A stretch of DNA of 64,000 bases from Marinobacter salsuginis (GTDB lineage Bacteria > Pseudomonadota > Gammaproteobacteria > Pseudomonadales > Oleiphilaceae). The stretch lies in NCBI RefSeq assembly GCF_009617755.1, contig NZ_BGZH01000006.1, positions 1 through 64,000 on the forward strand, read 5' to 3'. This document shows, piece by piece, positions 16,439-37,246 of this stretch (position 1 is its first letter; each line of letters begins with the position of its first letter). Under the pieces are notes generated by a model that saw only the letters and a program-made list of their open reading frames with translations, made no database searches and was not told the origin of the DNA. The translations under genes and the position numbers were made by a program.

Positions 16439-16740
16439 ATCGCTCGTCGCTTATCACTGGTCTGCAGACCGTATTGCTTTTAGAGAGAATCCATCTTTGA
16501 AAGGCAATGCGCTCCAGCTAACGGGGTCCTGGAGACCGGGGCAGCAGTTACAACGGCATCATCCAGGTTGCCGGTCGCTGGTGTGCCTGTATCAGAGATA
16601 GAAGTCCATAAGCCATGTTTGCACTATTTCCTATTTATGTAGTTATGTTTGTTTCTTCTCGAAAAAATCCAGAAGAAACATGATGCTAGAAAAAGAAAGG
16701 CAACCTGAATGAAGATTCAGTACCTTCGAGACGGTCTGAA

Positions 16741-17417
16741 GCAACTCAATGACGGGGAAATTGCCGTTCACTGACGTTTGGCGGCAACTTAATGACGGCG
16801 ATAAACAACCAAATGATGCCGGCAAGGGAATTTCCCTGGAGGCGGGTTCTTGGCAGTCATAGACTGGGAGGGGCAACCAAATGACGGCGTTTCAGAGGGG
16901 TGCAGAGCGCTTTCAGAGTCAGCTTCACAGAGCCCTATAGGCTGCTTAACCCTGATTTCATTAGTTTTCAGGGTAATAATCGGCAACCGGATGACGTTTT
17001 GGGTCGACTAAAGCAACCTGATGACGGTCAAATCAGAGAGCGCAGGCAGATTTAAAAGCAACTCGATGACGGTCGAACGCACTTTTCCTGAACCATACGC
17101 CGCAAAAGGCAACCTGATGACGGCATGGAAACGACACAAGCCCTCGAAAAGCAACTCAATGACGGTAATCACGCCGGTTTGGGCAACTCAAAGACGGTCT
17201 TTCCAGGCTGAACCTCGGAAATTACAGAGTCACTCAACGTGGCGAGACACTTCAGGCAACCTGATGACGGCCTGAGGTGGAAGATAGGTGCAATAAACAT
17301 CGATAACATGACCATATTGCACGAAAATCAGCCAGCTTTCCTCTGATCAACTATTCACGGCGTCATTTGGTTGCCTCAAAACCGTCATCAGGTTGCCTTT
17401 GACCATCCTTTGGTTGC
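16741..17417. repeat. Iteron array, probable origin of replication (oriV)
   Basis: Direct copies of about 15 bp (consensus GCAACCTGATGACGG) at 16741, 16784, 16873, 16983, 17013, 17058, 17109, 17151, 17183 and 17256, plus a degenerate copy at 16804. Inverted copies stand at 17361 and 17382, with a weaker one at 17403, immediately before rep; such inverted iterons are usual autoregulatory operators of Rep_3 genes. Spacing is irregular (about 30-90 bp). The stretch 16439-16740 before it shows no gene. Confidence 0.85.
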
Positions 17418-17484
17418 TTCTGGCTTTGTGCCCTTGAAGCGAAATCAGTTGGGTGATATTTGTTCAAACCATCATTTCATCTAT

Positions 17485-18684
17485 ATGGGGCTCACCGTGG
17501 GTCAAGCAGCTGAAGCCAGTCACCAGCTGGATTTAATTCCACTGAACGAAAACACCCCAAAACTGCGAGTTGCCAAGGCCAACGCACTCGTTGAGGCGCA
17601 ATTCGAGCTCACCAGCCAAGAGCACAAACTTCTTTTGGTTGCCATGGCACAGATCCGCAAGGATCAGACCCAGTTCCATGAACAGGTTTTTCAGGTACAA
17701 GATCTGGTCGAGCACCTGGAGCTGAATCCGAAAAACGCATACCGAGATCTGCGCCGGATTTCCAAAGGGATTATGAGTAAGCAAGTCACCATCCGGAACG
17801 ACGATACCGGGGAGTGGCGCATGTACCAGTGGGTTTCCAAAGCCTACTGCGAGCGAGGGACATTCGGCATCAAATTCAGTGAAGAGCTCAAGCCCTTCCT
17901 TATTGGCTTGGTCGGACGCTTCACTCTGTATGAGCTTGGTCGAATTCTTCGGATGAAATCGAATTACGCGATCCGACTCTATGAGCTCTTCCAGCAATAT
18001 CGCAAGTTCGGCAACCGGGTGGTGGGCCTCGATCCCAAATTGGCTGCACGCAACGGCTGGGACAACTTTTCCAAGTTGATGGGTTACAACCACGAGACAT
18101 ACGAGCGGTTCGCCAATCTCAACCAGAAAGTACTTCAACCGGCGATTGCCCAGATTGAGCAGTTCACCGAGTTCAAAAAGGTCTACGTAAAGAAAATTAA
18201 GCACGGCCGTAAAACGGTTGCCTTAGAGTTCGAGTGGAAAACCATCGACACTCTGGAAGATCTGCCTAATCACCCTCTTTATTCGGATCTGAGAGCACTC
18301 GGCGTCACCGACGCAACTTGCAGAGAAATCTTCTCTAAGTTCGATGAGGACCGAATCGTAAGAAACTTGGCCCTGGCCAAAGCTCACCATCGGTCTCAAA
18401 CCCTGAGCAATCCTGCAGGGTGGTTCGTCACTGCAGTAAGAGAAAATTACGCGGATCCGGAATTGCCCCTGGACGCCATTGCTCAGGACCAAGATCCAAA
18501 GACCGAGTCTACAAAATCGAAGCCTGAGCATCCGCTGTTTCACGATTGCGCAACTCCTGCAGAATTCCGTAATTTGGTTGCCGCTGAAAAGGAGAGGGGA
18601 GAGAGGTTCTCCAGCTACTCCGAATTTTTGAACTACTCGGTCAATCAACAGGTGGAGAGATACCAAGGCTCCAGTACTGATTGA
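17485..18684 (+). CDS. Rep_3-family plasmid replication initiator
   Basis: 399 residues from the ATG at 17485. The frame is open back to 17371, but that part is made of inverted iterons, so I reject the longer start. It contains the two winged-helix domains of iteron initiators: residues about 20-130 (KANALVEAQFELTSQEHKLLLVAMAQI, the classic first block) and about 140-245 (SYAIRLYELFQQY-type, here SNYAIRLYELFQQYRKFG). The C-terminal 130 residues are an extension. It binds the upstream iterons, melts the origin and represses its own promoter. Confidence 0.88.
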   Translation: MGLTVGQAAEASHQLDLIPLNENTPKLRVAKANALVEAQFELTSQEHKLLLVAMAQIRKDQTQFHEQVFQVQDLVEHLELNPKNAYRDLRRISKGIMSKQVTIRNDDTGEWRMYQWVSKAYCERGTFGIKFSEELKPFLIGLVGRFTLYELGRILRMKSNYAIRLYELFQQYRKFGNRVVGLDPKLAARNGWDNFSKLMGYNHETYERFANLNQKVLQPAIAQIEQFTEFKKVYVKKIKHGRKTVALEFEWKTIDTLEDLPNHPLYSDLRALGVTDATCREIFSKFDEDRIVRNLALAKAHHRSQTLSNPAGWFVTAVRENYADPELPLDAIAQDQDPKTESTKSKPEHPLFHDCATPAEFRNLVAAEKERGERFSSYSEFLNYSVNQQVERYQGSSTD

Positions 18685-18776: not shown

Positions 18777-19061
18777 ATGACTGACGAACTCAACTGGAAA
18801 AAATTCCAGTTCATTACCGAAGTGCAAACGGCACTGATTAACAATGCAATTAACCTCAGCCTGGAAAGTAGTGCGAAAGAGCGCCGACACATATTCTCTG
18901 CGACGGGCACACTCATTAATATGGATGACGCCTTTTACGCTGCCGAGCGAATTCCACATAACATGACTGCTCATGAGGCGGCGAGCGAATTCGTTGGATT
19001 CGTTTGCGAGAACTTACGCGAGCAAGGGGACACCGTACCCAGCTGGTTCGCTCGTGACTGA
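18777..19061 (+). CDS. Small hypothetical protein between rep and the R-M gene
   Basis: 94 residues from the ATG at 18777 (AAGGA upstream). Helical, acidic, no motif recognised (TEVQTALINNAINLSLESSAKERR). After it, 19154-19197 contains an inverted repeat CTGGAGAG/CTCTCCAG with a long loop. Confidence 0.45.
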   Translation: MTDELNWKKFQFITEVQTALINNAINLSLESSAKERRHIFSATGTLINMDDAFYAAERIPHNMTAHEAASEFVGFVCENLREQGDTVPSWFARD

Positions 19062-19242
19062 CCGAAGTGGTTCATGACATAGCTGTGAACCGACCCATCT
19101 TGCAATCCAACTGTTTCTCATCAATATTCGCGATTTCAAATTGAGTTTGACACGCTGGAGAGTGGAATGACTCTGGCGCTTCGCGTAACCCTCTCCAGAA
19201 AGGGTAATATCTTCTGAACCTGTGTCTTAAGGAGTAGTAAGC

Positions 19243-22200
19243 TTGGATGCGATCGCAACCTCTTCCGCTGTAAGCAGTTTTCTCGAACGCTGGAAAGGCA
19301 ACTCGGGGAGTGAACGCTCAAACTTCCAATCGTTTATGCGCGATCTTTGCACGCTCCTAGATCTTCCACTCCCTGACCCGGGGGAGGGCGACACCAGTCA
19401 GAACTCCTACGTTTTTGAGCGGTTTATCGCCTCTCCGCGAGTCGACGGCAACACTGAAAGCAGATACATCGATTTGTACCGTCGAGATTGTTTCGTATTG
19501 GAAGGGAAGCAGACAGGCAAACAACTAGCCTCTCGCAGCCACCAGAATGCCATCAACGCTGCGGTAGCCCAGGCCGAACGATACATCAGGGGGCTGCCCT
19601 TCGAGGAAGTGGAGCATGGCCGTCCTCCATTCATCGTTATTGTCGACGTCGGAAATGCCATCTACACCTATTCGGAGTTCACCCGGACGGGCGGAAACTA
19701 TGTGCCATTTCCAGACCCCAGACATTTTGAGATCCGTCTGGACGACCTGCACAAACCAGAGATCCAACATCGTCTTCGCCAGCTCTGGCTCGATCCCGAC
19801 AAGCTTGACCCAAGCAAACACGCAGCCAAGGTCACTCGGGAAGTCAGTACCAAACTAGCAGAGTTGGCAAGATCCCTGGAGCGCAGCGGGTATGACGTTG
19901 AAAGGGTGGCCAGCTTCCTCAAACGATGTCTGTTCACGATGTTCGCAGAGGATGTCGAGCTACTGCCGAGAGAATCGTTTCAGAACTTGCTCGTAGACAT
20001 TAAAGACCGGAATCCGGAGGCATTCCCCCATGCGGTTAAAGCCCTGTGGGATACCATGAATGCCGGCGGCTACAGCGAACGTCTAATGCAGACCGTAAAA
20101 CGCTTCAACGGTGGTCTGTTCAAAAACATCGATCCCATTCCGCTGAACGCCAGCCAGATCCAGCTACTCATTGACGCATCGAGAGCGGACTGGCGCTTTG
20201 TGGAACCAGCCATTTTTGGGACGCTGCTGGAACGAGCCCTAGATCCCCGAGAGCGCCACAAACTCGGCGCCCATTACACGCCCAGAGCCTATGTTGAGCG
20301 TCTGGTAATGCCGACCTTGATTGAACCGCTTCGCGAGCAGTGGGGTGACATTCGAGGAGCTGCGGAAACACTTTTGCGTCAGGGGAAAGACGCTAAGGCG
20401 CTACAGCAGGTCCAGGCCTTCCATTATCAACTTTGCCAAACCCATGTCTTAGATCCTGCCTGCGGCAGCGCCAACTTTCTCTACGTTGCCCTGGAGCACA
20501 TGAAGAGACTCGAAGGCGAGGTCCTGGGCTTTATTTCCGAGCTAACACAAGGGCAGGGTGTCTTGGAGAGCGAGGGGCTGACCGTCGATCCCCACCAATT
20601 CCTCGGATTGGAGCTAAATCCCCGGGCGGCCCAGATCGCTGAACTCGTGCTTTGGATTGGCTACCTGCAATGGCACTACCGGCTGAATGACCGCCTGGAT
20701 CTCCCCGAGCCAATTCTGAAGGACTTTAAAAACATTGAGTGCCGGGACGCTCTGATCGAGTATGACAGCCGGGAACCGGAGCTGGATGATAACGGGCGAC
20801 CAGTAACCATCTGGGATGGTATTAGCATGAAGGTCAGCCCAACGACGGGTGAGCTTATTCCCGATGAAACAGGCCGCGCCACTGTGTACCGGTACCACAA
20901 TCCACGCCGAGCCGAGTGGCCGAAGGCTGACTATATCATCGGCAACCCGCCGTTCATTGGCGCTTCAACGATGCGACGCTCTTTAGGTGATGGATACGTT
21001 GACGCTGTGCGCCAGGTCTTCAAAGGCGTGGTTCCGGATTCAGCCGACTTTGTAATGTACTGGTGGCATACAGCGGCCGAGAACGTAAGAAAGGGTAACG
21101 CTCAACGATTTGGGTTCATTACCACCAACAGTTTGAAGCAGACCTTTAACCGACGCGTATTAGAGCCGCACTTAAATGATTCAAAGATGCCATTATCGCT
21201 GGCTTTTGCGGTGCCGGATCATCCATGGGTAGATGGGAATGATGGTGCTGCCGTTCGGATTGCAATGACGGTTGGCGTTCAAGGAACACAACCAGGTTCC
21301 TTGAATCGAATTGTTAGTGAGATGAAATCTGAGAGTGAAACACGAAAAGTAGATATAGCGTCAGTTACCGGAAAGATCTTCTCAGATCTCACAATTGGCG
21401 CTGATGTGGCTTCAGCGCTACCACTAACTGCAAATTTAGGATTAACATTCCCCGGAATTGAGCCACACGGGAAAGCTTTTGTAGTTTCCCCCGATGAAGC
21501 TCGAGAGTTAGGCCTTGGAAAACGTTCTGGATTGGAAAGCCATATTCGCCCCTATCTGAATGGTAGAGATCTAACTGGTAAGCCTCGAAATGCTCTAGTG
21601 ATCGACTTATTTGGTTTAGAAATCGATGACGTAAAGTTGCGATTTCCAGAAGTCTATCAATGGGTAAAGGAAAGAATAAAACCGGAACGCGATCACAACC
21701 CTCGACCTAGTCGCCGTGACAAATGGTGGATCTTTGGCGAACCTTGCCCAAAATTTAGGGCCGCTCTTCCGCCGCTGAGCAAATACATTGCAACGGTGAA
21801 GACTGCAAAGCACCGAACTTTTCAGTATGTGAGCTCTGACACGCTACCCGACAGCAAACTAATTGCCTGCACTTTAGATCAGCCAGAAATATTGGGGGTT
21901 CTCTCCTCCCGGGTTCATACCTGCTGGGCCACTGCTGCAGGAAGTGCGCTTGGAGTCGGCAATGATCCAACGTATGTAAAAACAAAAAGCTTCGAAGCTT
22001 TTTCCTTTCCTGCTCTGGACGAAGCAGCAGTGGCTCAAATTGGCAAGCTTGCAACTCGTGTTGATGCGCACCGAAAAGACCAACTAACTGAGCATCCTTC
22101 ACTGACACTAACAGGCATGTACAACGTGCTGGAAAAACTACGCGCGAGCGAAAAACTCACCGACAAAGAAAAAACCATTCACCAACAGGGCTTAGTTTCC

Positions 22201-22716
22201 GTACTCCAAGAACTGCATGATGAATTAGACCATGCTGTTTTTCGGGCCTACGGTTGGTCGGACCTGGCCGAAAAGTTGGTAGGTCGCCCAGGCGCCACAA
22301 CGCCGCTTCCAGATAAGCCGGGTGGCCAAGCGGAAGCAGAAGAAGACCTGTTAATGCGCTTGGTCGACCTTAACAAGCAGCGGGCCGAGGAAGAATCACG
22401 AGGCATCATTCGTTGGCTCCGTCCAGAGTACCAAGCTCCCGATGCCGTTCAAACGGCAGTAGATATTGCGCCGAAGACAGCCGCAGCCAAAGCGGAAGCC
22501 ATCACCAGCAAAGGCAAAGCAACATTCCCGAAAGCCATTCCCGATCAGCTTAGAATGCTCCGTGAGGCTTTAGCCGAACGCTCGTACACCACCGAAAGTC
22601 TTGCCGAGCTGTTCAAACGGAAACCTGTAAAATCGGTTGAGGAAGGTCTCCAATCTCTGGTGGCTGTTGGTGTAGCAGAGTATGAAACGTCAACTGGCAC
22701 ATGGCACACCGTATAA
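19243..22716 (+). CDS. MmeI-type fused restriction endonuclease-methyltransferase
   Basis: 1157 residues from a TTG start (AAGGAG 8-9 bases upstream). The N-terminus shows a PD-(D/E)XK nuclease core, D77 ... E87-G-K89 (YIDLYRRDCFVLEGKQ). A helical linker follows, then an N6-adenine methylase with motif I DPACGSANF (about 404-412) and motif IV NPPF (568-571), and a C-terminal target-recognition region. This is the single-chain type IIG/IIL plan of MmeI: one protein both modifies one strand of an asymmetric site and cuts about 20 bp away. No DISARM or BREX partner genes are adjacent. It converges on the SMC operon. Confidence 0.82.
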   Translation: MDAIATSSAVSSFLERWKGNSGSERSNFQSFMRDLCTLLDLPLPDPGEGDTSQNSYVFERFIASPRVDGNTESRYIDLYRRDCFVLEGKQTGKQLASRSHQNAINAAVAQAERYIRGLPFEEVEHGRPPFIVIVDVGNAIYTYSEFTRTGGNYVPFPDPRHFEIRLDDLHKPEIQHRLRQLWLDPDKLDPSKHAAKVTREVSTKLAELARSLERSGYDVERVASFLKRCLFTMFAEDVELLPRESFQNLLVDIKDRNPEAFPHAVKALWDTMNAGGYSERLMQTVKRFNGGLFKNIDPIPLNASQIQLLIDASRADWRFVEPAIFGTLLERALDPRERHKLGAHYTPRAYVERLVMPTLIEPLREQWGDIRGAAETLLRQGKDAKALQQVQAFHYQLCQTHVLDPACGSANFLYVALEHMKRLEGEVLGFISELTQGQGVLESEGLTVDPHQFLGLELNPRAAQIAELVLWIGYLQWHYRLNDRLDLPEPILKDFKNIECRDALIEYDSREPELDDNGRPVTIWDGISMKVSPTTGELIPDETGRATVYRYHNPRRAEWPKADYIIGNPPFIGASTMRRSLGDGYVDAVRQVFKGVVPDSADFVMYWWHTAAENVRKGNAQRFGFITTNSLKQTFNRRVLEPHLNDSKMPLSLAFAVPDHPWVDGNDGAAVRIAMTVGVQGTQPGSLNRIVSEMKSESETRKVDIASVTGKIFSDLTIGADVASALPLTANLGLTFPGIEPHGKAFVVSPDEARELGLGKRSGLESHIRPYLNGRDLTGKPRNALVIDLFGLEIDDVKLRFPEVYQWVKERIKPERDHNPRPSRRDKWWIFGEPCPKFRAALPPLSKYIATVKTAKHRTFQYVSSDTLPDSKLIACTLDQPEILGVLSSRVHTCWATAAGSALGVGNDPTYVKTKSFEAFSFPALDEAAVAQIGKLATRVDAHRKDQLTEHPSLTLTGMYNVLEKLRASEKLTDKEKTIHQQGLVSVLQELHDELDHAVFRAYGWSDLAEKLVGRPGATTPLPDKPGGQAEAEEDLLMRLVDLNKQRAEEESRGIIRWLRPEYQAPDAVQTAVDIAPKTAAAKAEAITSKGKATFPKAIPDQLRMLREALAERSYTTESLAELFKRKPVKSVEEGLQSLVAVGVAEYETSTGTWHTV

Positions 22717-22767
22717 AGCAGCACCCTGAGTTAGAGGTGAAAGCTGAAGTCAGACCATGCTTATTAA

Positions 22768-23625
22768 CTAAAACAACACACTCGCCACAATATCAAGGTT
22801 GGCACACACTAGAGGCTGTTGCCGCGGGTTTTCTGGAATGTCTCCATTGGGGGAGACGTGATAGCTCGTCAGAACGTACTGCGCCATAGCGCGACGCGAT
22901 CTGACGGTCAAACAACCCCGGTCCATACTGTAATCTGCGCGAACGAGCTGTTGTTCTTGTTCACTAAGCTCCGGGTTCGGTATCAGGAGTAAATCAACCT
23001 GTTGATGCCAGTCATGATCAGCTTCTCCCGTGATCGCATCGCCGGCTTTACCCACCAAAGCAATCGACTCGAACCTTCCCAGATGGAAATCTCGGTAGCT
23101 CTGAGTTTCTTCATCAAAGGCCCTGCAATGCCATCTCAGGCCAGAATAGGCGAGGGCATGCGGGTGTACCTTTCGGTCCCGGCCGCTCGGATGGTTCCAT
23201 GAACGGTACCGGACCGCGATGATCTGGCATTCCTTGATCGCCTGAACGATTGTCCGGAACACACTCGGTTCGGGCTCAATGTGGGGCCGTGGACCGCAAT
23301 CGAGCCAGTTTCCTCCGTTAAAAGATCCACTGTGCTCAGCAGGGAACCGCCGGGCGAAGTCGATATACTCACTGATAATGCCCCGAGTGCACTTCGGCGT
23401 AAACGTAGTAGTCGGTTTGAAGATCTTGCAGACCGAGTCGTACCACATTTGTCCCGGATAGGTTTCCCGGTAATCCTGAATGTATCGGGTGACATTTTCA
23501 CGCCTGACGTTGAACAAGCGCCCGAGCCGTGAGGCGTTGCATCCCCCTTCCCAGTTCAGAAGTACTTCCATTGCCCGGTACCGATCCTGTCTTGAAAACT
23601 CCCGGAAATCGCTTTTATTTGCCAT
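22768..23625 (-). CDS. WYL-domain transcriptional regulator (BrxR/CapW-like)
   Basis: 285 residues. N-terminal winged helix (RYRAMEVLLNWEGGCNASRLGRLFNVRRENVTRYIQDY), a central WYL domain (IIAVRYRSWNHPSGRDRKVHPHALAYSGLRWHCRAFDEE, about 135-175) and a C-terminal WCX part. BrxR and CapW proteins are dimeric repressors that control BREX, CBASS and related defence operons and probably respond to a nucleic-acid or nucleotide ligand. The gene is fifth in the SMC operon and overlaps the toprim gene by 11 bp. A candidate operator lies upstream of the first gene at 30196. Confidence 0.85.
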   Translation of the reverse strand: MANKSDFREFSRQDRYRAMEVLLNWEGGCNASRLGRLFNVRRENVTRYIQDYRETYPGQMWYDSVCKIFKPTTTFTPKCTRGIISEYIDFARRFPAEHSGSFNGGNWLDCGPRPHIEPEPSVFRTIVQAIKECQIIAVRYRSWNHPSGRDRKVHPHALAYSGLRWHCRAFDEETQSYRDFHLGRFESIALVGKAGDAITGEADHDWHQQVDLLLIPNPELSEQEQQLVRADYSMDRGCLTVRSRRAMAQYVLTSYHVSPNGDIPENPRQQPLVCANLDIVASVLF

Positions 23626-24478
23626 GCGCTGTCCCCGGGAAGATAGGAAACCACTGGTGAACTATACCTAGAGCCAGCATCCGCTCCTGCGTAAACCCTC
23701 TTTTGCGAGCTCCGAGGTAATCGCAATGAAATGAAAGTTGGCCTGGCATCCCCATCCGGCGCAACTGTTCCCATTGAATGTGCTGATTGGTGAAATCGGT
23801 TTGACTACCATTTACATTTTCCAAATCCGATACACGGGGAAGGATAATGGTCTGGGCACCAGACCCGATCGCGATGACAAGTCCAGCAGGGTCGTAATCC
23901 ATATAGGCTGCCAGGGGGATATCCATCTCCTCAGACATATGTTTTGCCCATGTCTGGCCCATAGGCCGTGTCGGATCGCCTCTATACACGGCAAGAACGC
24001 TTTGGCCCTGGAAATCGAGCAATAACCGGTACAGGGAGTTAAAGGCAGGCAGGTTCTCCACAACCAACAGGTGGTCGCACTCGATGGTGCGGACGAATTC
24101 GGTCACCAGTGAAACATGAGAACCCTCTAGCTCGGGGAGGGTGGTACTGTTTACCCTCACAGTGGGCCCAATGGCACTGACTAGGACCCGCTCCCGATTA
24201 TCGGTAGACGCGGACAGCTTCTCATCGGTAGCGACCTCGGCCGTCTCCAACCGGTCACCTTCAAAAGCGGACCATGGGGTGGTCCAATCAATCGACTGGT
24301 GAGAGAGCCAGCCTTTCAAGTCCTGCTTTTGCTGCCGGGAAATCGAATAAGCCTTACCGTTAACGAAACCCAGGCCTCGAGCCGCGAGGCTTTCCAGTGT
24401 CTTGTTTCGCGTGAATGTCGTTTCCGGGGATTGAGCAACCTTCAGCGCCTGTTTGATTTCACGGCGTGTCGGTTTCAT
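23615..24478 (-). CDS. jetD: JetD/MksG-like protein with C-terminal Toprim domain
   Basis: 287 residues, shorter than the roughly 400 of usual JetD. The N-terminal 90 residues look like winged helices (RREIKQALKVAQ; RNKTLESLAARGLG). The C-terminal half contains Toprim-type acidic motifs: VVENLPAF with Glu141, and YMDYDPAGL with Asp194 and Asp196, arranged as in DUF2220. In Wadjet, JetD is the metal-dependent nuclease that cuts plasmid DNA after the SMC motor extrudes it. ATGA overlap with the gene before it. Confidence 0.75.
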   Translation of the reverse strand: MKPTRREIKQALKVAQSPETTFTRNKTLESLAARGLGFVNGKAYSISRQQKQDLKGWLSHQSIDWTTPWSAFEGDRLETAEVATDEKLSASTDNRERVLVSAIGPTVRVNSTTLPELEGSHVSLVTEFVRTIECDHLLVVENLPAFNSLYRLLLDFQGQSVLAVYRGDPTRPMGQTWAKHMSEEMDIPLAAYMDYDPAGLVIAIGSGAQTIILPRVSDLENVNGSQTDFTNQHIQWEQLRRMGMPGQLSFHCDYLGARKRGFTQERMLALGIVHQWFPIFPGTAHGK

Positions 24479-25782
24479 GAGAAAACCTCAGGGCTTGGAG
24501 CCTCGTGCACCTTCTTTTTCACATCTTCAAGGGAAATGCCGACCGGGTACACATACAGGTCAACTAGATCACAAGAACCAGCCAGTGGGTGAGCGGAGGT
24601 CGCATGGGTGTATAGGCCTACAAAATGAGAGGTATCCTGGCCGCCGGGCAATACCGGATCGCCATCCATATACAGTGCAATCGCATAAAGCCATTCACTT
24701 TCGTCCAGATCGGCAATCTCGTTGTCTCGCCCTTCAGAGTTCCAGAATTCAAGTGCGGAAATAGGCGCGTTGTTCTCAATGCACTGTGCCAGCATCCGTT
24801 TAACCATCTTGTCGAGCGGGGACACTTCAGCAACATGCTCTGCCTGAGTTTTCTCACGCAGCGTAGAATCTTCTCGCGTCACCTTCGGGGCTTCGTACTT
24901 AAGCGTTTCGCTGAGCCGTCCAACCAGCTCAGTGCAGGCTTCCTCTACCCCGACATCGTTGAGGTTGGGTATGGCCACCGCCGGCAAGGGATTGATGGTC
25001 CTGAAATACGGGTGCTTATCCAGCGCATCCTGTGTCCTCAAGGCTTCGAATCCCGGATTGTGCCGCATATGATCGGCAACCGCTCGGATCTTCCGAGCTC
25101 GTGCCTCAAGCTCTCGCACCTTGAACAGGTTGTCCCGGATGGTGTTCTGAGTCCGGCGTATCCGGTCCACCACTTCCATACACCGGATATCGAGATTAGC
25201 GATAAACCCACTTATCTCCGGATCCAGCGAGAACGGCTCGTCATTGAGGCTTGAACGCATCTGGTTGTAGCTTTCCACCAGGTTCGCAAGCTGCCGGCTG
25301 TAAAGTTCATTTTCACGGCGCCGAATATCCGGATTGCTCCGGATCCCGTAACTGCTGGTGACCCGGTTGAAGATAGTCGTACTGCTGTCATCCAGAATGT
25401 CGTAAATGGACAACAGGTGCTGTTCTACCTCGTCCCGAGCAGCCAGCATTTCATCGAACATGCCCTGATACTTCACATCCTGGAGCTGACGCATAGCCAG
25501 TTCCGCTGCCTGCAGTTCTGAATTGAGGTCAGTATTGATCGCCGCTATCCGATCTTTGCGTAGCGCCGCATCAAACACCTTCTGCAGTTTCTGATTCAGC
25601 CGTATGCCTGAGGACCCTTCCTTGCGCAGGAGGTGAGTTTTCATCAGGGGTTCTATCTGACTTAGCGCTTTGTCGTCCAGATCCACGCCAGAGCGCTCAT
25701 ACGCATCTACAACCAGTTCCCGGGCATTGTAAAGCTGCTGAATAAGATCGAGCAGTGGATGATGGCCGTTCGGTCCCCTCAT
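24475..25782 (-). CDS. jetA: MukF/JetA-like kleisin subunit
   Basis: 435 residues, overlapping its neighbours by 4 bp on both sides. Residues 20-75 resemble a winged helix (LSQIEPLMKTHLLRKEGSSGIRL). The middle (80-260) is long and helical (SELQAAELAMRQLQDVKYQG, SYNQMRSSLNDEPF). The C-terminal region is compact with an acidic surface (NSEGRDNEIADLDESEW). Assignment as kleisin rests on size, helical layout and gene context rather than on a diagnostic motif. Confidence 0.6.
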   Translation of the reverse strand: MRGPNGHHPLLDLIQQLYNARELVVDAYERSGVDLDDKALSQIEPLMKTHLLRKEGSSGIRLNQKLQKVFDAALRKDRIAAINTDLNSELQAAELAMRQLQDVKYQGMFDEMLAARDEVEQHLLSIYDILDDSSTTIFNRVTSSYGIRSNPDIRRRENELYSRQLANLVESYNQMRSSLNDEPFSLDPEISGFIANLDIRCMEVVDRIRRTQNTIRDNLFKVRELEARARKIRAVADHMRHNPGFEALRTQDALDKHPYFRTINPLPAVAIPNLNDVGVEEACTELVGRLSETLKYEAPKVTREDSTLREKTQAEHVAEVSPLDKMVKRMLAQCIENNAPISALEFWNSEGRDNEIADLDESEWLYAIALYMDGDPVLPGGQDTSHFVGLYTHATSAHPLAGSCDLVDLYVYPVGISLEDVKKKVHEAPSPEVFS

Positions 25783-26441
25783 GCCAGTTGCCCTTGCCGA
25801 CCACTTGCAGTATCCACCTCCGGCTCTGGAAGGTGTTCGTTATCCTGGATGAAAATGATCAGGTCCTGAACCAGTTCAATTCGGGAGGTTACCTGATAGA
25901 TCGAGTGCTTGGCGTTGGCCTCGACCAGCAAACCTTCTTTGATCAGTTGTGAGAACAGGCCTTCCAGCTGTTCCTTGTAAGCCGTGTACTTCCTGGAAGA
26001 AGGCAGGTTGCTCAGTTGGGTTTGCAGACTCGGGCTTTGGCTGACCTGGCTGAGCAGATCGTGAAAGCGCAGCTCTTCTCCTGGCAGCAGGGAGGACTCC
26101 GGATGCAGCGCGTTCATCAGCATTTCCAGCGTCTGAACGTAAAAGCGCAGGTTCTTCATCAATTTGGTGAAAGTCTCGCGGGCCACGGCTTTCACGGTGT
26201 TGTCGAAGCCTTGGTATACCAGATACCGACCGTTTCGAGAGCTAGTTTCAGCCAGCTCCATTCCCAGTTCGCTGCTCCATCGGTTAACCCGGTTCTGAAT
26301 GTCCTCGCGCTCTATCAACCTCGCCAGCGAAGGCGCTGACCACTGGCAGACAACGTTCCCGGCCAGAAGGCGGGTAAGCAGGGTGCGATAGGTTTCCGAG
26401 TTGCCAACGCTCTCGTTGGCCGGGGTGACTTGATCGACCAT
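25779..26441 (-). CDS. jetB: MukE/JetB-like winged-helix subunit
   Basis: 220 residues of mixed helical type with two probable winged-helix units: residues about 20-85 (LLTRLLAGNVVCQWSAPSLARLIER ... GRYLVYQGFDNTV) and about 150-205 (KEQLEGLFSQLIKEGLLVEANAKHSIYQVTSRI). The size fits MukE/MksE/JetB, which bridges kleisin and SMC heads. Its ATG overlaps the stop of the SMC gene (TGATG). Confidence 0.6.
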   Translation of the reverse strand: MVDQVTPANESVGNSETYRTLLTRLLAGNVVCQWSAPSLARLIEREDIQNRVNRWSSELGMELAETSSRNGRYLVYQGFDNTVKAVARETFTKLMKNLRFYVQTLEMLMNALHPESSLLPGEELRFHDLLSQVSQSPSLQTQLSNLPSSRKYTAYKEQLEGLFSQLIKEGLLVEANAKHSIYQVTSRIELVQDLIIFIQDNEHLPEPEVDTASGRQGQLA

Positions 26442-29400
26442 CAGACTTCTCCCTGGCTGATATCTTTGAACGGGTTGTTCGCTGCGGTGGTGCCGGGCTC
26501 GGGCATGCGCCAGCGGACAAAGCGTTTTCCGCCATCACAACGCTCCATCCGGTAAACCTGATTGAACATACCCAGCTGACGATCGCCCATGTCCGGACAC
26601 GCGGTTATCAGACTAATGTGGTGTTCAGCAAGCAGTGCCAGCAGCGTCCGTTTATTGTCGTTGTCGAAGGCACTCAGCTCATCCAGGGACCAAGTGAGGT
26701 GAACAGGCTGGCCCTTGCGCAGCATGTTGACGAAGCCAAGGAAGAGCACAATCATGACGATGTACGAGAGTCCATTGGAAGACAGGCCTTCATCTCCAGA
26801 AAGATCTTTCGAGCTAGAACCGGTCTTTGGTTTGCCATTTTCGATGATGAAGAATCGGAACCGGATCAATCGCCAAAGCTCTTTAACGGTCACGTTCGCC
26901 CGAGACTCTTCAAAGGTGTCTAGGTAGTTCCGCAGACTCAGAATCAGGTCTTCATCCGGCAGGCTGTTCAGGGTAGTGTTTTCTCGCCAGGTTCGAACGC
27001 TATCGGCCAGAGATTTAATGTCCTTCCAGTAGTCCAGTTCCTCAAGCTCAAAGGTAACCGTTGGCTCCACCCGCTCAATCGCTTTGAAGTTCAGGTTTTG
27101 CTCTATGCTGCTCGAAAGCTCCTTGTTGAAGCGTTTGATGCGTTTATCGAAGCCCTCCATGGCGCGACGGTAGATATCGATCTGGTCTAGATTACTGAAT
27201 CCAGAGGCCAGCGTGTCCCGCACCAGGTCATGCTTCCCGCCCCGGAAGTATTCAAGAATCGCCCGGGCCCGGATAATGACCTGGGCCGCTGTGCCGTCCC
27301 AATCCAGCTCGGCCTCCTGCCAATACTGGGTGCTTGGCGTCCCGGTGAACCGCTCAAAGATAGTCGCGAACCGGGTACCCACCTTCTTGAGCTCGTTGAT
27401 TTTGCTGCTTTCCCGCTGGAGCAGCATCTGGTACTCATGGGTTAGACTGTTGGCGTTCATTTCCCGGAACAGAGCAAGACTTTCATTGTGCTCTGAAACG
27501 AGCAGTTCCCGGTCTTCGGCCGTTTGCAGAATGCTAACCTGCAGGGTTGTCATATCTGTGTTGGCCTGGGTCTTGGCCTTGTTATTCTTCTCTATGCGCC
27601 CCTCAAGCTCCCTGCGCCGTGCGTTCCAGTTTCTGACCGCCTCGGCTCGCTCATCCCGGAGAAAACTCAGCTCCTTGTCCAGGGAGGAAACATCTTCTTT
27701 CAGGCCCGACAGTAGCGCGTATTCTTCCTCCATGAATCGCTTGTAGCTTTTCACGAGGATTTCTTTGGCGCGTATCGTTTCGATCTCTTCGGCCAGTTGC
27801 TTTACCGAACGGCTTAGCCTTTCCATCTCTTCTGGGTCGATGTCATGTCCAGCAAGGGCCTGATCCAATTGCTCCTGAAGGCGCTTAATGTCGGCATCCC
27901 GGGTATCTCTGGTCTGGGTCTTACTGGCCTCAATTTCTGCCAGGGCGTCTTTATAAGCCGTATCGAAAGCCTCAATCTCTTCTTCATGACGGGCCTCCAG
28001 TTGCTCGGCTTCCGAATCCTGAGAACTTTCAAGCGCCTCCATCTGCTTGTCCAGCTGACCCTTTTCAGCGACAAGCTTGCTCAGCTCACGCTCGGTTTCG
28101 GCCTTGTTATTCAGCTCGGATTGCGCTTTCTTCTGCCGGATAGTCGACAACGTGTCCTTTGCGCTCTCGAGTTCGGTATGGGCACGTTGAAAGGCGGCTT
28201 TCTTTTTGTTCAGATGTTCCTTGGCGTCGTTCCGATCGTTATTGGCCCGTGCCAGGGCCTTCTCGGCAGCCGCTTCCTCAGATTCGGCCTTGCCTAAATC
28301 CTCGGCAGCTTCTTCCATCTGGGAGCGTAGGGCAGCCGGAGTGAGTTCCTGCTCAGGGAGCCTCGAAAAATCAATGGACACACCACACAGGCTCTGACTG
28401 TCCGGGTAGTCCCGGTCCAAAGAAGGTGACAGGTTCTCATTGCGCAAAATTTCAGGCTCAAGAACGCGGCCCAAGGTGTTCTGCCATCCGGGCTTGTTTT
28501 TATTGAGGAAGTAGATCAGCGAAGATTCTTTGCCGTTGACGAGACTCAGAGCATTGGCATGTGCTTCTTCAAGCTTTTCGCACCACTCCCGGGCGTCGGT
28601 GAACCGTTGGTCCGCTGCCCGGTAATAATTGTCCGCTGTCTCGAATCGCTGACTCGCATTTAAGTTGTCGGTCTGAGCCGTGTCGAATGCTTCCTGAGCC
28701 TTGTCTCTGGCCGACTCGGCAATCGTGAACTGACGAACCAGTTCCTCTGACGCCTGTGGGTTATCTCGGCGCTCCTCAAGTCGACTGATCTTGCTGGTCA
28801 GGTCAGATAGACTTCCCTGCAGGGTGCTGGCTGACTGCTGCTGTTTCTTCGCCTGTTCGCGGATTTCACGGCTCTGGCGATCCGAAATGACTTTGCGCTC
28901 GCTCTGATGCTGACCAGTCAGTTCCTTGTAGCGGCCTTCCAGTCGGTCGAGTTCCTGCTGGGCCCGCTCCCGAGTAGTACTGATTTCCGCCTCAATAGGC
29001 CGGCGTACCTCTTCCGACTTATCAGCGAGGATCTTCAGTTGGTTGGCGTAACTCTCATGACGGCCGACCAGTTCCCAGATACCGGCAAGCTTTTGCTCCC
29101 ATTTGGGTAGTTCCTGTTCATCGTAGGAGGTCTTGTTGCGCTGGATGTTGTCGATTCGCGTGGCTATGGGGCCGCGTTGCTCTTCATGGGCTTTCTTCTG
29201 CTTATCAAGCTCCTCGAGGGCCTTGGAGTGAGCCTTGTCTTCATCAGATAGTTTCTGGCCAATCTCCTGGTTCTCTTCGTCGTAGGCGCGAACCTGGAGC
29301 TCCAGCGCCGTCTGACGATCACGGGAGGCCACCACCACGGCGGATAGTTTTGTGTTCGTGAGGGTGTAATCATCAAGCAAAATGCTGAGCTGGTCGCTTT

Positions 29401-30130
29401 CCGGGCGAGCCTTCTCCAGTGCCTGATAAGCGTCGTACTGGGTGAGAGTAGCAGTCAGGTGATCCCGGTGGACTGAAAAATTCTCCAGAATCTGCCGGGC
29501 ATCATCATCCAGCTTGTCCATGGCATACTCTTGAATAACCTTGGACAGATCCGCGAACTGAACCGAACGTTTGAACATGCCGGTAAACAGGGGCGTCAGC
29601 TTGGACATCCGGCCATTCCTGGGGCAAAGACTGAAGTGATACGCCTTTGATACCGTCCCATCGAGCAGGATTTGCCTATACTGCTGCGTCGTATCCACAC
29701 TCATGTGACCAATGCCTTCGGCATTCAGGCGAGACAGCAAGGTGTGGGCAGGGTAGATCTCTTCATTTGAGACATCTATAAAAAGGTCTTCCCGGTATGG
29801 GGAGTCAATAAAGACGTGCCGGTGCCTGGCCTCATTTCGCCGGTTACAGAATACCGCCATCTTGGGCTGCCCATGACTCAGATACTCAAACACCAGATAG
29901 GATCCGTTCCGCTTCAGGTAGAAAGAGTTGAAACTCTCATTCCCGTTGGCGCTCTCAACCGTAAGGCGCCGGGGACTTTCCCCGTAAAAGATCGGAATCA
30001 GTTTCAAGAAGCTGGTTTTACCAATGCCGTTAGCACCACTGATGTTGGTGTGACCAGAAACATCAAGCTCTGAGGCTCTGCCTTCAACATAGCTGTCAAT
30101 AAGGACGATTTTCCTTAGTCCGAACTCCAT
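26441..30130 (-). CDS. jetC: Divergent SMC/MukB-like ATPase (JetC-like)
   Basis: About 1229 residues from the ATG at 30130 (a GTG lies one codon earlier). Walker A GANGIGKTS near residues 32-40. About residues 230-1010 are coiled coil interrupted near 530-600 by a small globular (hinge-like) region (LINGKE-type: SLVNGKESSLIYFLNKNKPGW). The C-terminal head has a signature-like LSGDEGLSSNGLSYIV and Walker B with catalytic Glu in LTWSLDELSAFDND. Such ATPases extrude DNA loops. It is the first gene of the operon, which reverses the usual F-E-B (A-B-C) order. Confidence 0.8.
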   Translation of the reverse strand: MEFGLRKIVLIDSYVEGRASELDVSGHTNISGANGIGKTSFLKLIPIFYGESPRRLTVESANGNESFNSFYLKRNGSYLVFEYLSHGQPKMAVFCNRRNEARHRHVFIDSPYREDLFIDVSNEEIYPAHTLLSRLNAEGIGHMSVDTTQQYRQILLDGTVSKAYHFSLCPRNGRMSKLTPLFTGMFKRSVQFADLSKVIQEYAMDKLDDDARQILENFSVHRDHLTATLTQYDAYQALEKARPESDQLSILLDDYTLTNTKLSAVVVASRDRQTALELQVRAYDEENQEIGQKLSDEDKAHSKALEELDKQKKAHEEQRGPIATRIDNIQRNKTSYDEQELPKWEQKLAGIWELVGRHESYANQLKILADKSEEVRRPIEAEISTTRERAQQELDRLEGRYKELTGQHQSERKVISDRQSREIREQAKKQQQSASTLQGSLSDLTSKISRLEERRDNPQASEELVRQFTIAESARDKAQEAFDTAQTDNLNASQRFETADNYYRAADQRFTDAREWCEKLEEAHANALSLVNGKESSLIYFLNKNKPGWQNTLGRVLEPEILRNENLSPSLDRDYPDSQSLCGVSIDFSRLPEQELTPAALRSQMEEAAEDLGKAESEEAAAEKALARANNDRNDAKEHLNKKKAAFQRAHTELESAKDTLSTIRQKKAQSELNNKAETERELSKLVAEKGQLDKQMEALESSQDSEAEQLEARHEEEIEAFDTAYKDALAEIEASKTQTRDTRDADIKRLQEQLDQALAGHDIDPEEMERLSRSVKQLAEEIETIRAKEILVKSYKRFMEEEYALLSGLKEDVSSLDKELSFLRDERAEAVRNWNARRRELEGRIEKNNKAKTQANTDMTTLQVSILQTAEDRELLVSEHNESLALFREMNANSLTHEYQMLLQRESSKINELKKVGTRFATIFERFTGTPSTQYWQEAELDWDGTAAQVIIRARAILEYFRGGKHDLVRDTLASGFSNLDQIDIYRRAMEGFDKRIKRFNKELSSSIEQNLNFKAIERVEPTVTFELEELDYWKDIKSLADSVRTWRENTTLNSLPDEDLILSLRNYLDTFEESRANVTVKELWRLIRFRFFIIENGKPKTGSSSKDLSGDEGLSSNGLSYIVMIVLFLGFVNMLRKGQPVHLTWSLDELSAFDNDNKRTLLALLAEHHISLITACPDMGDRQLGMFNQVYRMERCDGGKRFVRWRMPEPGTTAANNPFKDISQGEV

Positions 30131-30195
30131 CACGCTGCCCCAATTTTTTCGTTTGAAGTTAAAGAGCTCTGATCACAAACTCCACCTCACTATAT

Positions 30196-30220
30196 ACATG
30201 TGACGAAACGTCTCATATGT
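30196..30220. promoter_or_regulatory. Candidate operator upstream of the SMC operon
   Basis: An imperfect inverted repeat, ACATGTGACG, AAA, then CGTCTCATATGT, 65-90 bp upstream of the first gene. It is a plausible binding site for the WYL protein. The AT-rich stretch that follows (30221-30260) may contain the promoter on the minus strand (TATAAT at about 30236-30241). Confidence 0.4.
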
Positions 30221-30462
30221 GTTTTTTTATACAGTATTATAAAGTCTATTTGCGGATTATGAAGCGCTTGCTATATGATAGGTTGCTACGCATAATAAAC
30301 ATTATGTTAAACCAGGTGCGGTGTTCATTTTAGTTCACCAGATTTTCTCGGTTTTGTCTCCAGCCCTTTGTTGTGGCCTTTTGTCTCAAAACAGCCAAAA
30401 TCCGGTGCCCTTTTCTTACGCGCGGTTTTAAAGTTCGTTCATGACACCCAGAGCGCGTGGAA

Positions 30463-31819: not shown

Positions 31820-32651
31820 CGACGTCTGTTGAGTCAGTCCAACAGGAGCAGCCAACGGAGCACCGCGCCCGCTACGGCGATCGGGAGTTTCGTTACCACC
31901 TCTGCTAACTACCGACATATCAGCGGCGATCCATACAGGTCCACGTTCATCCAAATGGGAAAGTTCAGGTGGATGCCCCTGGGGACTCTCCCCTTTCCGA
32001 AATCAAAGCTGCCGTTCAGCGCCGGGCCCGCTGGGTTCTGAAGCACCTGGATGACATCGAGCAGAGCCATCGTGACGTGCTGCCGCGGCAGTGGGTCAGT
32101 GGGTCAGTGGGTCAGTGGGTCAGTGGGTCAGTGGGTCAGTGGGTCAGTGGGTCAGTGGAGAAAGTGTGCTGTATCTAGGGCGCCGTTACGTGCTCAAAAC
32201 GATCCAGGACCCTGAGCAACGCAAAGTAACCTGCCAACTCATCGGTGGAAAGTTGCGGGTGCGAGGCAAGGATCTCATCCCAGAACGTACACATGCGGCC
32301 GTACAGCAATGGTATCGGGATCGGGCCTCGGATGTGTTCCAGCGCAGGTTAGATCTTCTAGTAGACTCCCTACCCTGGCTTAAAACGCCGCCTGAGTGGC
32401 GCATGGTAGCAATGCAGACACAATGGGGAAGCTGTGCGGCCAGCGGCGCCGTTCTGCTGAACCCGCATCCGGTCAAAGCGCCGACCCGGGCTATTGATTA
32501 CGTTTTGCTCCACGAGCTTTGCCACCTGGTAGAGCACAATCACAGCCCCCGGTTTTACAACCTGCTGGACCGGTTTATGCCGGATTGGCGTTCGGTTAAG
32601 GAGCGGTTGGATGGGCAGGCTGAAGTGATCCTCAGGGGATCAGTAGCCTAA
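31816..32651 (+). pseudogene. YgjP/DUF45-type M48 metallopeptidase, broken by a stop and a repeat
   Basis: GTG at 31816 overlaps the hsdR remnant stop. An in-frame TAA occurs at 31906. The frame resumes (RRSIQVHVHPNGKVQVDAP) to the CAGTGGGT array at 32089, beyond which the rest of the protein continues in another frame to 32651. The C-terminal part contains the zinc site HELCHLVEHNHSPRF (HExxH plus a downstream His). Such peptidase genes commonly sit next to hsdR. The protein is off in this sequence. Confidence 0.75.
32089..32160 (+). repeat. Eight CAGTGGGT units plus a partial ninth, inside a peptidase gene
   Basis: Perfect 8-bp tandem repeats at 32089-32152, then CAGTGG. One unit plus the partial restores the plain reading QWVSGESVLYLG, so the extra units are an expansion. 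Because 8 is not a multiple of 3, changing copy number shifts the frame: 1, 4 or 7 copies are in frame, 8 are not. Confidence 0.9.
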
Positions 32652-33219: not shown

Positions 33220-33630
33220 TCAGCCGAACCAGCGTTTGAGCCACTGCCAGATTTTTTGCACGACTGTTACAGGTGCATTATTGATGCCTCTGTTAAAGTA
33301 GCTTCTTCTCCTTAACTGTTCAGACTTTCGACCTTCCTCAATCTCGGCGCGAGTCCACTCTCTGGCCCAGATAATGTTGCCATTGGCTATCCAGTAATGG
33401 GACTTACAGCGTAGCTGCCAATTACCGATTGAAGGTTTCAGAGATGGCCCTTTCTCAGTATTAGAAAGCCGCCATTCAGTGGGAGTTAAAGGCGTTCTTA
33501 CCTTCTCACCGCATCCGCACGCGCACAGATGCGCTGCCGTGTTGAATTCCTGCGATACGTATAACACTCCATTCTGTAGGACTTTGGGCATGTAATGCAC
33601 AAATTCAGTCTTCATTTTCATTGAATGCAT
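33220..33630 (-). CDS. DUF6527-like zinc-binding protein of a ubiquitin-like locus
   Basis: 136 residues. Motifs LCACGCGEK (Cys cluster, about residue 36), GPSLKPSIGNWQLRCKSHYWI (about 62-82) and a Trp-rich tail fit DUF6527, whose members sit next to ThiF/E1 genes. The Cys and His residues suggest a metal site. Its exact part in conjugation or processing is not known to me. The gene overlaps the E1 gene by 26 bp. Confidence 0.7.
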   Translation of the reverse strand: MHSMKMKTEFVHYMPKVLQNGVLYVSQEFNTAAHLCACGCGEKVRTPLTPTEWRLSNTEKGPSLKPSIGNWQLRCKSHYWIANGNIIWAREWTRAEIEEGRKSEQLRRRSYFNRGINNAPVTVVQKIWQWLKRWFG

Positions 33631-34810
33631 TTTCCCTCACCATCAAGAACGAACTCACATTGAAACGAGTATCAAAAGTGCGGTTTTCTCCCTCATAAAA
33701 CCCTTTGATTTGCTTGTATTGCAGTATCGCCATACAAGCGTTCAAAGCGTTTAGCTCACTAATCTGGATGTTTGATTTGTAAAGATTATTGGGATCCTCA
33801 GATTCATTTGCGCACTTCTTCTCCCTTACCCTATCAGCGTCTTCGGTAGAAAAGTACGTTGCCCTGAGCATTCCACTGAGATCGCCAGCTGAGCTTCGCT
33901 TAACTCCCAACCCAGTGTCGATGAACGGTATCCTCATTCGAATCAAGATATCAAAAATTTCTTTACGCGAATCACCATTGTCGACGCATACGAAGGCAAA
34001 GGTGACATTCTCGAGCAAATGGCTTGATTCCTCATCGAGACATTGGTTTTTTAGGGATAGACCGTGGCGAAAATTTTGGTACCGGCGCTCGTAAACCTTA
34101 GCTTTTGGAAGGCCTAACTCTTCTTCATCCAGGCGTCCAGGAGAGCGATACGTGTTGTGCACGTGAAAGTAATCGTGATCGAATCCTATTATTTCTTTTA
34201 CCGGGGTTTTGGATAGGAAGTCCAATAGATAGGCACCTGTTCCACCCAGGCCTATTATTGCAACCACTTCGTTCGAGAGCCTCTCTGAAAGATCTCCTAG
34301 ATCAGACCGACTGGTAAGCGTATCTCGAAATTTGAACACGGGATCTTCCAAAACCTCTTCTCGTAAGCGAAAAGTGTAGGGGTTGGCGTTGTGCTTATTG
34401 ATTGCTGGGCCAGAGATCATGCCAACATACGTTTCCAACTTATGAAAATGATCCTTGTATTTTCCAGCCCCTTTGGGCTTTACCGAGAAGGACCGCTGGA
34501 CGACGACGTCGTTAAATGTTGGGCTGAGATTAATTGTGCAGGCTCCCCCTCCCAGCCCTCGAACCGGGTTTCCGTCCGCAGCGTGCGGCGTATCTCCGGC
34601 AAAATAGATTTGGTGGTCGTTTTGTTCGAAGCGAAATTTGTCAAGAAATTTCAACTTGCACACAATCGCGCCTATCCTCAACTGTCCCGTGCTGTCCAAG
34701 TAAGGAATATCATGCACGATTAGGTGGTTAGTGGTGTCGACTGATAGCGCGTAACCTTTATCGACCAACTGCTGCAAATCACTATTAAGATTGACCAGTT
34801 TCTGAAACAT
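33605..34810 (-). CDS. ThiF/E1-like adenylyltransferase
   Basis: 401 residues. The C-terminal half is an E1 Rossmann domain: IIGLGGTGAYLLDFL (nucleotide loop, GLGGTG about 187-192), IIGFDHDYFHVHNTYRSPG (about 208-226) and AFVCVDNGDSR. The N-terminal 150 residues form a separate domain (YALSVDTTNHLIVHDIPYLDSTG) found with this subfamily (DUF6791-like). Such enzymes adenylate the C-terminus of a ubiquitin-like protein. It overlaps both neighbours by 26 bp, so the three genes are one unit. Several Cys residues (KKCANESE, NACMAIL) could carry the thioester. Confidence 0.82.
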   Translation of the reverse strand: MFQKLVNLNSDLQQLVDKGYALSVDTTNHLIVHDIPYLDSTGQLRIGAIVCKLKFLDKFRFEQNDHQIYFAGDTPHAADGNPVRGLGGGACTINLSPTFNDVVVQRSFSVKPKGAGKYKDHFHKLETYVGMISGPAINKHNANPYTFRLREEVLEDPVFKFRDTLTSRSDLGDLSERLSNEVVAIIGLGGTGAYLLDFLSKTPVKEIIGFDHDYFHVHNTYRSPGRLDEEELGLPKAKVYERRYQNFRHGLSLKNQCLDEESSHLLENVTFAFVCVDNGDSRKEIFDILIRMRIPFIDTGLGVKRSSAGDLSGMLRATYFSTEDADRVREKKCANESEDPNNLYKSNIQISELNALNACMAILQYKQIKGFYEGENRTFDTRFNVSSFLMVRENAFNENED

Positions 34811-37242: not shown

Positions 37243-37246
37243 TGGC

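Follow-up and report, generated by a model that had tools for sequence, protein, structure and literature searches.

A plasmid-borne SMC operon of Marinobacter salsuginis with a short Toprim protein and the gene order C-B-A-D, a probable relative of Wadjet and MksBEFG

How could a plasmid carry what looks like a plasmid-killing system? This question is raised by a five-gene operon on a contig of Marinobacter salsuginis (NZ_BGZH01000006.1, 112,360 bases), of which we analysed bases 1 to 64000 (hereafter the window). The operon encodes an SMC ATPase (C), a KITE subunit (B), a predicted kleisin (A), a short Toprim protein (D) and a WYL regulator. We consider C-B-A-D to be, most probably, a Wadjet/MksBEFG-like motor with a nuclease that acts on small circular DNA. 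What we observed is the family or fold of the subunits, conserved catalytic residues, the gene order and the plasmid location; loop extrusion, cleavage, the target, sparing by size and repression by WYL are steps that we infer by analogy.

A five-gene overlap chain

The list of open reading frames (ORFs) gives five minus-strand genes in a chain from position 30133 down to 22768, with overlaps, from C to WYL, of 1, 4, 4 and 11 nt:

26441..30133, minus strand: C, SMC ATPase of the DUF3584 family, MukB/MksB/JetC-like, 1230 amino acids (Pfam PF12128, invariant ATPase motifs, hhalign)
25779..26441, minus strand: B, KITE subunit, MksE/MukE-like, 220 amino acids (MksE PF21980 in relatives, hhalign)
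24475..25782, minus strand: A, predicted kleisin, MukF/JetA-like, 435 amino acids (AlphaFold model and Foldseek)
23615..24478, minus strand: D, short Top6A/JetD/MksG-like Toprim protein, predicted nuclease, 287 amino acids (DUF7281 and Top6A Toprim, conserved residues)
22768..23625, minus strand: WYL regulator of the BrxR/CapW type, 285 amino acids (matches to PDB 7t8k and 7tb6)
30236..30263, minus strand: possible sigma-70-like promoter of the operon, TTCATA-16-TATAAT (10 of 12 positions match; weak, as such sites are as frequent as expected in shuffled sequence)

These coordinates confirm the five overlapping genes reported in a preliminary description of this DNA. It had also called the WYL gene fused into the chain, which is right for the overlaps but not for the protein, a separate polypeptide.

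Subunits of a predicted SMC motor and nuclease

To place the subunits we used two reference sets from our own survey: Mks-type loci, with 7–9 sequences per subunit (the B rows are MksE by Pfam in 3 of 9 and were otherwise named by position), and JetD_C-type loci, grouped by their JetD_C proteins regardless of Wadjet type, with ten sequences for D and three for each of the other subunits. Mismatched-pair controls in hhalign gave at most 4.6%, the maximum being A against Mks-type B.

The DUF3584 family (PF12128) spans C almost end to end (E = 6e-150; model positions 1–1190 of 1191). In hhalign, C matched Mks-type SMC proteins at 99.6% over 867 columns and JetD_C-type SMC proteins at 94.6% over 416; its relation to MksB comes from the first of these matches, to a set that we named from its MksE and DUF7281 neighbours. 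The Walker A, signature and Walker B motifs, a feature of Wadjet membership, are intact: residues G33, N35, G38, K39, T40, S1119, G1121, D1151 and E1152 are invariant in all 39 SMC rows listed. Wording of the SMC head that had been thought unusual is thus normal within the C-B-A-D family. A PDB sequence search with the SMC profile returned no SMC-complex row, and scans of genome contigs and viral contigs with profiles of the SMC alignment found no relatives. In PADLOC-DB, C of the window and of two related loci (L117 and L005) gave only weak, partial rows to JetC, LmuB, AriA or PtuA, with JetC at 9.5e-5 or weaker. LmuB was matched by three of five members (1.5e-4 for the window protein) and AriA by two of five, at a strength similar to that of the JetC rows.

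The LmuB and AriA rows could point to a Lamassu-like defence against phages, in which the SMC complex would detect phage DNA, either circularised or with ends, and D would be the nuclease effector; BrxR/CapW regulators are also reported to accompany phage defence (PMC9122601, PMC9122588). We regard this as very unlikely. A kleisin together with a KITE subunit is the architecture of Muk, Mks and Wadjet, not that of Lamassu as its composition is given in PMC10586767, and the long profile match is to Mks-type SMC proteins, in a comparison that covered the Mks-type and JetD_C-type sets.

For B, the MksE family (PF21980) was found in six of six members at E ≤ 1 (best 1e-12) and in 20 of 24 at E ≤ 0.01, and DUF4194 (JetB) in 7 of 24. 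B matched the Mks-type B set at 80% over 171 columns and the JetD_C-type set at 3.5%. A PDB sequence search with the B profile gave no SMC-complex row, even with 22–24 sequences. Judged by these family matches, B is a KITE subunit of the JetB/MukE/MksE kind, a part that belongs to both Wadjet and MksBEFG.

Protein A had no sequence-level match to known kleisins, JetA included, in Pfam, in hhalign or in a PDB profile search that included 22–24 sequences. It matched the JetD_C-type A set at 0.15%; the two reference A sets also miss each other (0.7%), so hhalign is blind to kleisins at such depth. An AlphaFold model built with 26 sequences (pLDDT 71.7) combines long helices with a winged-helix-like part at the N terminus and a helix–strand domain at the C terminus. 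When Foldseek compared it with 350,542 PDB chains, the top seven rows were all MukF or JetA, with a best E of 1.9e-4 and three below 0.001; the PDB matches include MukF (9gm7_C, 7nz2 and 3euh) and JetA (8q72_E). In VIA-align, non-SMC helical bundles (syntaxin, STAT) tie with MukF, and the case for a kleisin is therefore built on its Foldseek ranking and the order of its domains. A profile scan with the kleisin alignment matched three genome loci and, among viral contigs, none. The four-subunit call made earlier (SMC, MukE-like, kleisin, Toprim) is thus borne out by Pfam, fold and family matches; for the middle two proteins, A leads to MukF/JetA by fold and B to MksE by family, so that the outcome named in advance as refuting the call, middle proteins of unrelated fold, did not arise.

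In D, Pfam found DUF7281 (6.7e-22) and the Top6A/Spo11 Toprim domain (1.1e-4; 22.7 bits, short of the 24.1 cut-off), and the family profile reached Top6A 2zbk in the PDB at 4.6e-4 (0.002 with 23 sequences). Among 45 aligned D proteins, some of them from loci without all four genes, E141, N142, D194 and D196 are present in every row and E265 in 43. MksG is described with metal residues E236 and D279 and with E349/E351 conserved (PMC10123090). The spacing from D194 to E265 in D is 71, compared with 70 from D279 to E349 in MksG, and we propose that D194/E265 may be the equivalents of D279/E349. None of the columns that are at least 90% conserved across the 45 rows holds a tyrosine, which makes Top6-like religation by D unlikely. 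In hhalign, D matched Mks-type D proteins at 95.7% over 257 columns and JetD_C-type D proteins at 89.7% over 72.

JetD is a Toprim protein with an N-terminal CAP and arm, about 400 amino acids in all. At E ≤ 1 Pfam gave window D no DUF3322 or DUF2220 (JetD_C) row; JetD_C was found in two of six D members, window D not among them. Twelve of 13 JetD_C-type rows (11 distinct loci) measure 389–493 amino acids, and the thirteenth, of 682, results from an extended reading at a locus that also appears with 493, which bears out the early remark that 287 residues is short against about 400. A Toprim protein of this length may be near the lower size limit for nucleases driven by an SMC motor.

Relation to Mks, Wadjet and MukBEF

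Of the two reference sets, the family appears from sequence to be nearer to the short-SMC Mks-type loci than to the JetD_C-type Wadjet loci. It shares with MksBEF and MksBEFG an SMC protein, an MksE-type KITE subunit and a kleisin, and the best profile matches of C, B and D are of this type. The Mks-type loci have an SMC protein of about 920 amino acids, compared with 1230 in the window, and a DUF7281-like Toprim protein of 287–303. The order published for MksBEFG is mksF-E-B-G, whereas that of the window would read B-E-F-G, and MksG is described by DUF3322 and DUF2220, whereas window D is DUF7281 (PMC10123090).

With Wadjet JetABCD the family shares all four parts (SMC, kleisin, KITE and Top6A-like Toprim), and the kleisin model matches JetA. 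It differs in order (A-B-C-D against C-B-A-D), in the greater length of most JetD_C-type proteins and in its profile match to the JetD_C-type loci, which is nil for A and weak for B. In PADLOC-DB 2.0.0, neither JetA nor JetD matched the proteins of the window, L117 or L005, and B gave either no row or JetB1 at 0.0084 (L117); the database holds no Wadjet type with this gene order and content. To MukBEF the likeness lies in the MukF matches of the kleisin model. MukBEF is not known to include a nuclease and has the order mukF-E-B. Both C and D are members of Pfam families, DUF3584 and DUF7281, to which Pfam assigns no system or function.

Plasmid-borne Wadjet is already known: PDB 8q72 is titled as E. 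coli plasmid-borne JetABCD, and Wadjet types I–III and plasmid-encoded Wadjet are described in PMC10586767. In a literature search we found five papers naming DUF3584, no paper naming DUF7281 and no title or abstract opening naming a C-B-A-D type, and 'type IV Wadjet' had no match; an earlier mention elsewhere is possible. The C-B-A-D loci, with a DUF3584 SMC protein and a short DUF7281 Toprim protein, are a new branch of the known Wadjet/Mks kind, and surveys of plasmid defence based on PADLOC-like models would miss them.

One gene order across the branch

All 45 loci in which the family profiles found all four genes at scores above 100 have them in the order C-B-A-D on one strand. These are 44 distinct loci, as L011 and L125 are one record; in three of the 45 (L007, L050 and L113) C or A is in two pieces. 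Six further C-B-A-D loci (L167, L168, L173, L175, L176 and L177) bring the total to about 50. The loci were found through similarity to D, C or A, so that relatives with other orders could escape. Because the same four genes stand in the same order at about 50 distinct loci, the order is not due to chance, and because the unit of four is kept, its parts work together. The departure from A-B-C-D that had been noticed in the window is therefore genuine, but it is a trait of the family, not an oddity of a single plasmid.

The rule is not strict beyond this branch. Two Bacteroidota plasmids (L169 and L174) show B-C-D with low scores and no A by profile, and Mks-type loci with an SMC protein of about 920 amino acids and a weak DUF7281-like Toprim protein keep the usual order, or another order at L148 by weak rows; A and B of these loci were mostly named by size and position. 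Gene order is thus plastic in the wider superfamily and constant in the proteobacterial branch as sampled.

The C-B-A-D branch recurs across Gammaproteobacteria (in the sense of GTDB). DUF7281 was found in 13 of 369 genomes class-wide and in 43 of 124 genomes of the genus (38 above the cut-off), where the weaker matches include Mks-type loci, so that not all 43 are C-B-A-D. The genome that carries the window has a single DUF7281 match, on the plasmid. Between 13 and 14 of the 44 four-gene loci, all in Marinobacter genomes, have common downstream neighbours, and one of them (L114) lies on a 4.4-Mb contig; this shared site is presumably chromosomal and vertically kept. In an SMC tree of 47 rows the window groups with L013, a contig from a gammaproteobacterial metagenome-assembled genome, and then with L177 (support 100). 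Eight members of its group of ten are labelled plasmid, L013 included, and the group stands apart from the Marinobacter chromosomal group, so that the plasmid copy seems not to have been taken from the chromosomal system of the genus. The tree was a quick one, with several long branches and a warning from the tool of false joins.

A conserved site of this kind, as a housekeeping gene would have, raises the alternative that C-B-A is a condensin for the replicon itself, which organises or segregates the plasmid or chromosome, with D as a decatenating or topology-relieving partner. The operon does lie beside a rep gene, with parAB on the same contig, and P. aeruginosa MksBEF is reported to contribute to chromosome organisation (PMC10586767). 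We judge this alternative unlikely. The distribution is patchy, as the DUF7281 counts (not all C-B-A-D) show; 9 of 22 plasmid records examined are broken; D has no conserved catalytic tyrosine; and the BrxR/CapW-type regulator and the restriction–modification and Tn7-like contexts favour defence.

Six further Marinobacter loci (L127, L128, L129, L143, L144 and L148) are of the Mks type, with an SMC protein of about 920–1000 amino acids, a short DUF7281-like Toprim protein and A-B-C-D or other orders, A and B being named mostly by size and position; they appear to be another Mks-nuclease group. In the host genome, region C3:125000-144000 (L147) encodes MksE (1.7e-22) beside a 979-amino-acid protein with a weak P-loop row (0.015), and a host Mks-like system may coexist with the plasmid operon.

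Carrier size and the fate of the operon

The size above which DNA escapes Wadjet is given as about 100 kb (PMC10586767), and the 112-kb contig exceeds it. We classed 22 plasmid records, chosen from 43 with an SMC match together with records found by D alone; 13 enterobacterial records (H31–H43) share a short SMC match and six Acinetobacter records (143–179 kb) share a D fragment, and one of each set was read. Thirteen copies were intact (median 257 kb) and nine broken (median 143 kb; Mann–Whitney p = 0.11). Below 60 kb there were one intact and three broken copies, and above it 12 intact and six broken (Fisher p = 0.26). This count leaves out the two Bacteroidota plasmids and takes L050 as broken, although its two split genes may stem from sequencing errors. 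With these p values over 22 records, size dependence was rejected as proof. Broken copies were also seen on large plasmids, of 110, 143, 187, 196, 266 and 427 kb.

One Acinetobacter allele allows a closer view. Among the best 30 of 250 matching PLSDB records, five cover more than 2% of the operon query: the operon is intact on a 141.8-kb plasmid, lacks C or more on plasmids of 54.7, 50.5 and 19.7 kb, with differing breakpoints, and keeps all four genes on a plasmid of 40.2 kb. On the last, 104 nt separate C from the end of an IS5-family gene upstream of it, and the resemblance to relatives breaks off 52 nt before C. The sole undisturbed copy of this allele thus lies on the sole plasmid above 60 kb, which hints at self-sparing by size. 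Two other Acinetobacter alleles are intact, one on a 129-kb plasmid and one on plasmids of 275 and 395 kb. Such a series on plasmids of 20–142 kb would be a direct and cheap test of how a plasmid carries a plasmid-killing system. Many further records match over the first 119 bases of the allele query, and several of these matches fall at ISNCY transposase genes; the upstream region is therefore rich in mobile elements, and general decay by insertion sequences is a fair rival for this pattern.

The preliminary description had proposed plasmid competition in which the carrier is spared by its size. The allele series points that way; the test of 22 records was not significant, and the 40.2-kb plasmid is partly against it. 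A more specific form of the idea, which we hold to be possible but doubtful, is an undescribed plasmid-versus-plasmid weapon gated by the size of its carrier: small carriers would bear the cost of an active system and lose it, large conjugative plasmids would retain it and clear smaller rivals, and in the WYL subtype expression would be delayed from entry until the plasmid is established. Broken copies are common enough (nine of 22) to suggest also that the module is in decay or silent and is carried along next to the replicon. That explanation is highly improbable, given that the window copy is intact and that C, B, A and D are full-length in L011 (M. maroccanus) and L013 as well.

A BrxR/CapW-type regulator in one subclade

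The WYL protein has a Pfam WYL match (3.7e-14) and reaches BrxR in the PDB (7t8k) at 1.1e-36 over residues 15–279 of 285 and S. maltophilia CapW (7tb6) at 1.2e-28. By this near full-length similarity to solved proteins it is a BrxR/CapW-type regulator; it differs from them in the position of its gene, at the 3′ end of the operon and overlapping D. BrxR/CapW proteins are reported as regulators associated with defence (PMC9122601, PMC9122589, PMC9122588).

A WYL gene lies downstream of D and overlaps it in the window, L011 and L013, and lies downstream in L177 too, a locus from another family. In M. flavimaris (G387) an identical WYL gene begins one contig, A and D lie at the end of another, that of locus L012, and the same arrangement is likely there. 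On the IncC plasmid pVIM-Exn692 (L007) the WYL gene is upstream and divergent, beside Tn7-like genes. The only further WYL match among the surveyed loci was at L043, a different system. WYL thus recurs as a regulator in one subclade and stands outside the core: of the order C-B-A-D-WYL proposed for survey, C-B-A-D recurs, but a downstream WYL was seen only in that subclade. Relatives at about 30% identity are common, in 625 plasmid records and in 145 of 163 genomes of the taxonomic family, and WYL alone is therefore no marker of C-B-A-D. No WYL operator could be recognised at the operon promoter, where the top inverted repeat had a score close to the median of shuffled sequence and no counterpart in L013.

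As a separate observation, C-B-A-D with the BrxR-like WYL in L007 appears to be cargo of a Tn7-like element, with its SMC gene interrupted by ISSod4.

A proposed mode of action

By analogy with JetABCD and MksBEFG, C, A and B would form an SMC–kleisin–KITE motor that loads on circular DNA and extrudes it. The motor would then trigger D, the Top6A-like Toprim protein, to cut those circles that, being small, can be drawn in whole. Such a system could protect the host cell, and the place of the resident conjugative plasmid within it, from smaller plasmids or circular phage DNA, while the chromosome and its own 112-kb replicon would escape on account of their size. The overlapping WYL gene would most likely provide BrxR/CapW-like feedback repression of the operon. 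The context is one of defence, with a type IIG neighbour, the BrxR/CapW-type regulator and, in L007, Tn7-like genes beside the operon.

Several points weigh against this proposal. The kleisin identity of A depends entirely on a predicted fold, as its match to Mks-type A (4.1%) is no better than the mismatched comparison with Mks-type B (4.6%). Window B by itself reaches MksE at just 0.018, outside the 20 of 24, and its fold model is poor (pLDDT 50). The top Foldseek row of that model was JetB (8as8_C, E = 0.16), and its VIA-align rows did not include MukE, MksE or JetB, which for so poor a model is no evidence of absence. D is about 110 amino acids shorter than JetD, and the docking element of JetD may therefore be absent. 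The syntenic copy in 13–14 Marinobacter genomes also fits a housekeeping condensin, and the 40.2-kb plasmid with all four genes sits poorly with sparing by size. Finally, plasmids in C. necator H16 are reported to have been unaffected, in the conditions tried, by deletion of a Wadjet III (PMC12645576).

The replicon and neighbouring genes

Among ten chosen ORFs of the contig, Pfam identified a ParA-type ATPase, ParB, KfrA, a TacA antitoxin with its GNAT partner, a TrwC-type relaxase, a TrwB/TraD coupling protein and F-type TraC and TraG. By this gene content the contig is a conjugative plasmid; comparison of the ends of the 112,360-base contig found no overlap. Next to the operon lie the following features:

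16696..17400, no strand assigned: iteron array of the plasmid origin, direct-repeat families around GGCAACCTGATGACGG
17371..18684, plus strand: Rep3 replication initiator, 437 amino acids (PF01051, 1.5e-36)
19243..22716, plus strand: MmeI-like type IIG restriction–methylation enzyme, a convergent neighbour (PADLOC REase_MTase_IIG, E = 0, 1551.7 bits)

The Rep3 gene is 4.1 kb from the WYL end of the operon and the iterons lie at about 16.7–17.4 kb, in agreement with the plasmid origin placed about 4 kb away at the outset. A DNA search of plasmids with the 25-kb centre of the window found none. L013 aligns without a break to positions 16612-30346 at 95%, and L011 aligns to 16612-21068 (89%) and 22208-30324 (97%), so that the operon DNA of the two is about 95–97% identical to the window; the type IIG gene adjoins the operon in both. 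The M. flavimaris locus L012 aligns only over 23709-25404, at the end of its contig. Positions 21068-22208, which have no alignment to L011 between flanks that align, lie inside the type IIG gene and are likely a specificity swap, perhaps of the target recognition part.

Beyond the operon, a minus-strand ORF at 33605-34810 with small neighbours at 33220-33630 and 34785-35036 encodes a protein with DUF6791 and ThiF (E1-like) domains and has weak PADLOC E1–E2 rows; the group at 33220-35036 is possibly a ubiquitin-like conjugation defence module. A minus-strand pair at 36196-37864 looks, by eye, like an AbiEii-type nucleotidyltransferase toxin with its partner. An ORF at 32091-32651 on the plus strand resembles, by eye, a YgjP-like zinc peptidase; its N-terminal GQWVSGSV repeats perhaps reflect an over-long start across a short tandem repeat.

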